IMG/VR virus record: IMGVR_UViG_3300025325_000074
Location: 1-39,180 of that record
Length of the DNA stretch: 39,180 nucleotides
Direction: 5' to 3' (one strand)
From: a virus
In this document: positions 15,772-17,568 of the stretch, one piece after another
Layout: every line of letters starts with the position of its first letter
Numbering within the stretch: position 1 is the first letter of the stretch
Notes under the pieces: model-generated
The model's database searches: none
What the model was told of the DNA's origin: nothing
The model's input: the letters and a program-made list of their open reading frames with translations, nothing else
Translations under genes and position numbers: made by a program

Positions 15772-17568
15772 TTGATTCGACACGCTATCGCGATCGTACT
15801 GTGCCTGCTGCTGGTGTCGTGCGGAGGTGGCTTCCCGATCCCCATCCCGAGCCCGCCCTTCCCGATCCCGACGCCGCAGCCGGAGACGCCCTATGTCTGC
15901 TCCGCGCCTCCCGCGCTGCGCGGCGTGATCTCCGTGGCCGAGCCGATCGAGGGCAGATACATCGTCGTGCTGCGTCCGCGCGTGGGGGCACAGTCGGTGC
16001 GGACCCAGGCTGAGGTGCAGGCGGTCGCCGCCCGGTACTCGGTGCTGAGCCAGGTGCAGACGCTCGGGAGCCTCGGTTTCAGCGCGGTGACGACAGCGGC
16101 GGGCGCCTCGCAGGTAGCGCTCGATCCGGAGGTGGCGTACGTCCAGCAAGACGGGCGCAAGAGTACGCGCTCAGGTGTGTTGGTTCTGGCGTCGCAAGTT
16201 GCTTCTGGTGTATCCGGCCCGATAGGTCTCGGGGTGGCGGCTTCGCCAACGCAGTCCTCGATCTCGCTCGCAGAGACGGCATTGCATGGAAGGTCCAGGG
16301 CGATTCGGAGGATAGACCTCTCGCAGGTTCGCGGCCGAGAGTTCGTGTCCATTGCGACACCGCAGACCACGCTTCGGCTTGCCTCGGAAATGATGCGAGG
16401 TGTGCTGTCCGATGGTCATCAGTCGCAGATGATCGGGGTTGACGCAAGCACGCGTTCCACAGATGTGATGGACTTGCATCCCCGTCGGGATCGGGCCAAC
16501 GAACAACTCGTAAGCCACACGATGGGCATTTCTGCTTTCGTCCGTGGTGAAACGGAAGCGTCCATATCCGTGCGCGAAGCCTCCAGTCCAGAGATGGCAG
16601 CCCGTGTTCACTGGCCGTATGTACTTCTGGAAGCGGACGCCGAGTTCGCTGCGTGGTCTCAGCAGTCCTTTGTTCCACGTCTTGTGCCCAGGCCGGAAGG
16701 ATCCGGAGTTTCGAGCGTGCATGGACAGACAGTATCACATTTGACCGTGTCTGTCACGCCCGGTCTCGATCGCTCGGATCAGCGCGACTTGCCTCTTGAC
16801 GGCATCTTCGTTCCCGTTGGGACTGGAGAGGGCATCCATGCGTACATCGGAGACACGGGCATCGACTCGCAGCATTCCGAATTCGCTGGACGTCTGGGGG
16901 AGTGCTTCACTGCGCACACCTTTGGTGGCTGCGAGGACCGTCACAACCATGGGACGCACGTGGCTTCTATCACGGGTGGTACACAGTACGGCATCGCGAA
17001 ACGTGTCACTCTGCACTCGGTGCGGATGTTGAACGAGCAAGGCAGCGGTTCCGATTCCGACGTAGTCCGTGGTATCCAATGGGCTGCGGCGAATCGGAAG
17101 GCTGGCGGTTGGAACGGCGTGCTCAACATGTCGCTCGGCGGCTCGCCTGCGCCTGCTCTCGACGCTGCGGTCTGCGCTGCCATCGCGGATGGCCTCACGG
17201 TCGTGGTCGCAGCTGGTAACGATGGCGCCGATGCCTGCGGATCCTCGCCGGCCCGTGTGGATCTGGCGTTAACTCTCGGCGCCATGGACCCACGAAACGA
17301 TCGCGGGGCCGATTTCAGCAACGGCGGTCCTTGCACTGACCTCTATGGTCCTGGCATGGACATCGAGGCAGCACGACGCGGGGGCGGCTCAATCACTTTC
17401 AGCGGGACGAGCATGGCCTCCCCTCACGCCGCAGGTGTCGCTGCGCTCTGCGCGCAGCGCACCACGGGTGACCCGGTCGAGGTCATGCGCTGCGTGCTGG
17501 CGAGCGCCACGCCCGACACGCTGACCGGGGTCGTGGGCCCGAACCTGCTGACGTACGCGAGGGAATAA
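15772..17568 (+). CDS. Subtilisin-family (S8) lipoprotein protease with I9-type propeptide
   Basis: 598 residues from TTG 15772, chosen because GGAGG (15761-15765) is correctly spaced. Residues 1-16 plus lipobox 'LLVSC' (Cys17) mark a lipoprotein, followed by a Pro-rich spacer. Residues about 55-128 form an inhibitor I9-type propeptide ('GRYIVVLRPRVGAQ' to 'VALDPEVAYVQQDG'). The enzyme begins near 'TPGLDRSDQRDLPLDG' (about 329). It has an intact triad: D361 in 'YIGDTGID', H393 in 'NHGTHVASI', S547 in 'SGTSMASPHAAG', and oxyanion N483 in 'AAGNDG'. Between propeptide and enzyme, about 195 residues are simply the complement of an antisense HNH gene, yet the frame stays open. The protease is expected at the cell envelope. 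Confidence 0.75.
   Translation: MIRHAIAIVLCLLLVSCGGGFPIPIPSPPFPIPTPQPETPYVCSAPPALRGVISVAEPIEGRYIVVLRPRVGAQSVRTQAEVQAVAARYSVLSQVQTLGSLGFSAVTTAAGASQVALDPEVAYVQQDGRKSTRSGVLVLASQVASGVSGPIGLGVAASPTQSSISLAETALHGRSRAIRRIDLSQVRGREFVSIATPQTTLRLASEMMRGVLSDGHQSQMIGVDASTRSTDVMDLHPRRDRANEQLVSHTMGISAFVRGETEASISVREASSPEMAARVHWPYVLLEADAEFAAWSQQSFVPRLVPRPEGSGVSSVHGQTVSHLTVSVTPGLDRSDQRDLPLDGIFVPVGTGEGIHAYIGDTGIDSQHSEFAGRLGECFTAHTFGGCEDRHNHGTHVASITGGTQYGIAKRVTLHSVRMLNEQGSGSDSDVVRGIQWAAANRKAGGWNGVLNMSLGGSPAPALDAAVCAAIADGLTVVVAAGNDGADACGSSPARVDLALTLGAMDPRNDRGADFSNGGPCTDLYGPGMDIEAARRGGGSITFSGTSMASPHAAGVAALCAQRTTGDPVEVMRCVLASATPDTLTGVVGPNLLTYARE
16171..16722 (-). CDS. HNH homing endonuclease, antisense inside the subtilase gene
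   Basis: The only convincing minus-strand gene: 183 residues. The N-terminus 'GSFRPGHKTWNKGL' is the F-x-x-G-x-x-x-x-N-K-G motif common in homing endonucleases. The core reads 'GCHLWTGGFAHGYGRF', 'AHRVAYELFVGPIP' and the HNH centre 'VHHICGTRACVNPDHL' (H85/H86, N95, H98), with Cys pairs for zinc and a later 'CRNGH...CRLC'. It is closely related in layout to the HNH at 18503. It lies between the propeptide and catalytic parts of the subtilase. Its own promoter candidate lies at the 16724-16755 junction. It is too short to be carried in a group I intron with a full ribozyme. Confidence 0.85.
   Translation of the reverse strand: MHARNSGSFRPGHKTWNKGLLRPRSELGVRFQKYIRPVNTGCHLWTGGFAHGYGRFRFTTDESRNAHRVAYELFVGPIPTGMQVHHICGTRACVNPDHLRLMTIGQHTSHHFRGKPKRGLRCRNGHELSAANLREVYPPNRPGPSMQCRLCERDRGLRWRSRHPETYRAGYTRSNLRRQNQHT
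16724..16755. promoter_or_regulatory. Inverted repeat and weak minus-strand promoter at the HNH insertion edge
   Basis: GACAGACA (16724-16731) and TGTCTGTC (16748-16755) form an 8-base inverted repeat around 16 bases. Read on the minus strand the same segment offers GTGACA followed by GATACT, spaced 15 bases, just before the HNH ATG. It may be the HNH gene's promoter with an operator, or the scar or border of the insertion. Confidence 0.35.

Follow-up and report, generated by a model that had tools for sequence, protein, structure and literature searches.

Homing endonuclease genes that lie within useful coding sequences are usually considered to need an intron or an intein, and exceptions to this view were provided by the work on the ShiLan domain (PMC11855218). 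In that system, which was published in 2025, a phage methylase hides an HNH sequence of 195 aa in a different frame, and the host frame stays open. The ShiLan domain has no intron or intein features and is predicted to loop out, and its HNH gene lacks a ribosome-binding site (PMC11855218). A likewise hidden HNH insertion occurs in Pacc40 gp60, a mycobacteriophage methylase (PMC11855218). Since an HNH gene within an open host frame without an intron or intein has already been published, the locus in the present study is a variant of a ShiLan-like element and not wholly new.

The window, which is the whole stretch of DNA analyzed, is a virus contig of 39,180 bases. This contig most likely represents a whole genome that was assembled as a circle because its first 186 bases recur at the contig end with 99% identity. 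The portal protein matches the P22-like portals of podoviruses, and the genome is podovirus-like. It also carries a tRNA gene at 20891-20962, a tandem repeat at 22234-23014 (213-base unit, 3.7 copies, in frame) in a probable tail or fibre protein, and 35 copies of the hexamer GGTCCT at 26342-26553, which encode a potential dipeptide repeat whichever strand is read. By inspection, an HNH gene at 16171-16722 is the single exception among the convincing genes seen, all others being on the plus strand. The features of its surroundings are as follows.

15772..17568, plus strand: subtilase (proteinase-K-like, S8) gene, 598 codons including the insert; open reading frame, Shine-Dalgarno GGAGG and Pfam S8 match
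15955..16152, plus strand: I9 propeptide domain, residues 62-127; Pfam Inhibitor_I9 E=0.00059, pLDDT mostly >90
16171..16722, minus strand: gene of an HNH_3 endonuclease (183 aa), complementary to residues 134-317 of the protease frame, which form the insert core
16717..16719, plus strand: possible internal in-frame GTG start at residue 316, with GGAG eight bases upstream, as read from the letters only
16723..16761, no strand assigned: AT-richer stretch from the HNH start to the GLDR codons; insert (HNH leader) or native linker
16762..17565, plus strand: S8 catalytic domain, residues 331-598

The explanation that we favor, at somewhat better than even confidence, is that a free-standing HNH gene, carried by neither an intron nor an intein, was inserted antisense into the linker between the propeptide and enzyme, and that the precursor is read through and the additional segment tolerated or trimmed.

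Regarding the protease, a single open frame runs from 15772 to 17568, and the two separate frames of HEG-split genes of the Aeh1 nrdA type were not found. A TTG start at 15772, directly 3' of GGAGG, was preferred over an upstream ATG at 15667. A lipoprotein-type signal peptide was recognized by eye (lipobox LVSC, residues 14-17), which suggests that this phage-encoded subtilase is probably a lipoprotein. The I9 match fell narrowly short of the Pfam cut-off, and the Peptidase_S8 match (6.4e-33) covered a complete domain, in which the catalytic residues D361, H393, and S547 and the oxyanion residue N483 were invariant across 47 aligned sequences. The best PDB matches belonged to the ProteinT/aqualysin family, with 46-48% identity to solved structures, and the I9 propeptide, D-H-S triad, and S8 fold together assign the protein to the proteinase-K-like subtilases (S8). 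Small membrane-type genes at 15325-15639 and 17568-18202 flank the protease in an arrangement that appears by eye to be lysis-cassette-like, and a lipoprotein protease in this setting may have a role in the disruption of the host envelope. Independent contigs of the same phage terminate at 15652, 15750, and 17658, bracketing the protease gene, and these ends may reflect strain variation around the protease within the population.

The HNH reading frame comprises 184 codons from an ATG start to a TGA stop, and its product matched Pfam HNH_3 (PF13392, 1.6e-16) and PHROG 826 (2.7e-40). H86, N95, H98, C88, and C93 were invariant in an alignment of 42 sequences, indicating an intact HNH motif with zinc-binding Cys/His residues, and the top PDB matches of the predicted fold were the homing endonucleases I-HmuI and I-PpoI, with weak E values of 0.008-0.06. 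The codons of the HNH gene and protease are in exact register on opposite strands; the codon-aligned frame is stop-free over 184 codons, and the other two plus-strand phases contain 6 and 2 stops. No ribosome-binding site and no sigma-70 promoter passing the scan were detected for the HNH gene, which counts against the favored explanation. In genomes of the phylum of L056, HNH relatives were present in only 7 of 396, all with identities of 47% or less. A second HNH_3 gene, located on the sense strand and 39% identical to the antisense HNH, adjoins a DUF5675 gene (18494-19108 and 18921-19499). Its N-terminal 20 residues are identical at 12 of 20 positions to the N terminus of this neighbor (E=1e-6) without similarity at the DNA level, and it looks as if it was inserted into, or fused with, the 5' end of another DUF5675 copy.

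The preliminary description of this DNA had placed a minus-strand HNH gene at the propeptide/enzyme boundary of a subtilase, and the open reading frames, Pfam, PHROG, and a comparison with homologues all agree with this placement. The I9-like propeptide upstream and the complete S8 domain with an intact triad downstream were also borne out by the matches given above. The open protease frame through the HNH complement, with both halves in one frame, held as well; its length, given as approximately 195 codons, needs to be corrected to the 184 codons of the open reading frame.

The position of the insert was examined with 110 subtilase loci, consisting of 30 from IMG/VR, three of which belong to the same phage, and 80 from bacterial genomes. 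The segment at residues ~134-317 was absent from the 107 other loci and present solely in the three same-phage contigs, so that it is not an ordinary conserved subtilase region, which the preliminary description had named as a reading that would contradict its own. The closest relatives showed 56% identity (Acidobacteria and Myxococcales) and 55% in a viral contig, and their linkers between DGRK and GLDR are 6-17 aa long; the linker in the present protease is 16 aa after excision of exactly the HNH open reading frame. Since the segment is missing from homologues and the predicted structure agrees, residues ~134-317 constitute an insert within the linker that joins the I9 propeptide to the S8 enzyme. 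The locus, hence, contains an antisense insertion at this place with the frame kept and both coding sequences intact.

The left end of the insert was resolved to nucleotides ~16156-16173 and the right end to nucleotides ~16717-16761. No convincing direct repeats or target-site duplication were found at these ends, and an 8-bp inverted repeat, GACAGACA/TGTCTGTC, is present at 16724-16731 and 16748-16755. The mature N terminus of solved relatives corresponds to residue ~323, at a distance of six residues from the edge of the insert; this position is approximate because it was mapped through a variable linker. The insert is, therefore, a few residues away from the site at which maturation normally occurs. 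At the right edge, Pro replaces the near-universal Trp preceding GLDR, which counts against the favored explanation. The peptide read from the insert in the protease frame lacks Cys and Lys, is balanced in charge (17 basic and 18 acidic residues), and is free of membrane-like stretches, which is consistent with the favored explanation. Four insert-bearing contigs, including the window, are all identical. Relatives in metagenomes were sought, as the preliminary description had proposed, and the viral and genome scans yielded either these identical copies or relatives with at most 57% identity, and no near relative lacking the insert was found. Contigs that are 84-99% identical elsewhere in the phage stop short of the protease region.

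The 598-residue product was modeled, again as previously proposed, with AlphaFold and a 47-sequence alignment. Confidence was high for the I9 and S8 domains, with a pLDDT of ~90 or higher at residues ~41-134 and ~330-598, and fell below 50 at residues 136-322, the limits of which coincide with the HNH open reading frame. A low pLDDT in the insert is expected from the missing aligned sequence and is no proof of disorder. The best Foldseek matches of the protease model were ProteinT, Meiothermus keratinase, and aqualysin I. Since both domains align with the prodomain-catalytic structures of PCSK9 (572 columns, target TM 0.81), the model retains the canonical zymogen arrangement, from which the insert loops out.

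Removal of the segment from the mRNA was considered because antisense HEGs are known in group I introns (PMC9548176), and an undetected self-splicing intron carrying the HNH gene in antisense, as is the case for certain group I introns of nuclear rDNA, would reproduce the arrangement. However, the Rfam scan returned no match up to E=5 and no group I or II ribozyme core was found, and a group I intron or other RNA in the insert was rejected on this basis, in line with the preliminary description, for which an RNA intron would have been contrary evidence. In addition, the HNH open reading frame leaves at most ~60 nt of the insert uncovered, which is too little for a separate ribozyme core, and an open host frame would be needless for an intron; we regard this explanation as highly improbable. 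The insert in the protease frame matched no Pfam family, and a HINT domain, Cys/Ser start, and His-Asn end of an intein were not found. An intein is present elsewhere in the genome, at 29676-30758 in the large terminase gene (28737-31304); it bears a LAGLIDADG domain, starts with Cys, and ends with Gly-Asn, with Ser at +1. The corresponding site is empty in the relatives L015, L016, and L019, which have Glu at +1. The DNA identity of the terminase is 84% upstream of the intein and 93-98% downstream, an asymmetry resembling that of co-conversion.

The propeptide plus insert and the enzyme may instead be expressed as two polypeptides, with the enzyme starting at the internal GTG at 16717 and the propeptide acting in trans. 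The GGAG eight bases upstream of this codon is consistent with such a start, and HEG-split phage genes offer precedents in mobE/nrdA and mobA/gene 60 (PMC2988022). Nevertheless, no stop codon separates the halves and the enzyme half would be without a signal peptide, and we judge split expression to be improbable.

The open frame also needs to be considered against chance. Synonymous recoding of the HNH protein left the codon-aligned antisense frame open in 21% of cases with the phage codon usage and in 0.8% with GC3 only; the value was 5% when Leu and Ser codon usage was taken from 38 comparable viral HNH genes, and the frame is actually open in 7 of these 38. Among 184-codon stretches of the phage's own genes, 757 of 4066 were open in the codon-aligned antisense frame. 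With a chance baseline of 5-21%, the open frame by itself is ordinary and, therefore, weak evidence. A random antisense insertion that keeps length, phase, and openness together would be expected at ~1-2%, a value obtained by multiplying the open-frame chance by one third each for length and phase; this represents modest evidence for selection, and the case was itself picked out by its open frame. In none of 75 further viral HNH loci did a host-like open reading frame on the opposite strand extend well past both ends. Only L190 showed a long open frame reaching out on either side, in this instance on the same strand, and it was rejected as a nested case because the frame belongs to a capsid-type gene that is extended upstream by chance.

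These values bear on a further explanation, in which the HNH gene recently disrupted a dispensable accessory protease that is now non-functional or impaired, and the frame is open through composition and youth because GC-rich codon-aligned antisense frames seldom hold stops and there has been no time for decay. Besides the 5-21% chance of an open frame, the loss of the Trp preceding GLDR, the lack of divergent copies, and the absence of a subtilase from portal-related contigs, which are fragments, are consistent with this explanation. On the other hand, joint retention of length, phase, and openness would be expected at random in only the ~1-2% of insertions calculated above, the triad, signal peptide, I9, and S8 are all intact, and the insert occupies the segment that is most tolerant of changes in length. 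Disruption is, thus, unlikely in our estimation, although it is the most serious of the alternatives to an antisense insertion with read-through.

Codon composition provides a hint only of how the insert arrived. GC3 falls from 0.90 in the propeptide to 0.65 in the HNH gene and reaches 0.71 in the enzyme (first 120 codons, 0.67; later codons, 0.75; Fisher p=5e-5), and the drop from the propeptide to the enzyme was at most 0.08 in 13 related genes. A difference of the same size was reached by 2.6% of comparable stretches of the own genome. Homing in T-even phages converts flanks asymmetrically (PMC2988022), and the GC3 step resembles a one-sided co-conversion tract arriving with the endonuclease. 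A recombination mosaic in the protease was rejected because block-wise identities and protein distances differed too little.

According to the favored explanation, a free-standing homing-type HNH gene would have entered, in the antisense orientation, the flexible propeptide-enzyme linker of a secreted phage subtilase, and its product would cut alleles that lack the insert, close to the conserved WGLDRIDQR coding motif, and spread by repair. The protease would be translated through the insert into a 598-residue precursor, in which I9 and S8 would pack as a normal zymogen and the 184-residue segment would loop out. The protease may then tolerate this segment as a tail or trim it off because maturation cuts the same linker anyway. 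Proteinase-K-like enzymes have broad specificity and could trim a loose segment. Removal of the insert by autoprocessing is plausible and would take two cuts, one near the end of the I9 tail (~residues 131-137) and one near residue 323. It is a more doubtful proposition, and one that we hold only tentatively, that the antisense homing gene persists through the use of the protease's own autoprocessing junction as an exit, with selection holding the frames of both strands open; if true, this exit would represent post-translational removal without splicing.

In comparisons with known systems, this locus shares with ShiLan and Pacc40 gp60 an HNH open reading frame that fills an insertion absent from uninterrupted homologues, an open host frame without an intron or intein signature, a predicted loop, and an HNH gene without a ribosome-binding site. 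In ShiLan, however, the HNH gene follows the sense strand but uses a different frame, the insert lies among conserved methylase residues, and the distribution is disjunct, whereas the present HNH gene is on the opposite strand and codon-aligned, its insert occupies the propeptide/enzyme linker, and it is represented by four identical insert-bearing contigs without a near relative lacking the insert. The HEG-split genes, namely, mobE in Aeh1 nrdA, mobA in T4 gene 60, and seg43 in phage 25 gene 43 (PMC2988022), similarly have a free-standing endonuclease gene inside a coding sequence, the host enzyme of which is thought or shown to survive, but comprise two reading frames in place of the continuous frame found here. 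Antisense HEGs in nuclear group I introns (PMC9548176) also lie opposite the interrupted gene; they are carried by a self-splicing rDNA intron, and none was found here. Inteins are inserted in frame, translated, and then removed from the protein, and the present insert would share the in-frame translation; in contrast to inteins, it has no intein domain or family match, and any removal would occur via the activity of the host protease, with the ends not religated. Aqualysin I and ProteinT have the same I9 propeptide and S8 domain, and the present protease differs from them in the 184-residue junction insert, the missing Trp before GLDR, its phage origin, and its probable lipoprotein nature.

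An antisense or reverse-strand case is absent from the ShiLan paper (PMC11855218). The proposal in the preliminary description of a third way besides introns and inteins stands for the antisense insertion, the kept frame, and the lack of an intron or intein, and not for novelty in kind, for which ShiLan is the precedent (PMC11855218); what is new, within the open-licence papers that the literature search covered, is the antisense orientation together with the location at a junction that is cut by the host protein itself. The present case adds an antisense version to the known exceptions and offers a natural explanation of tolerance in that the linker is built to be cut, and how such elements spare the host gene becomes directly testable with one cloned gene.
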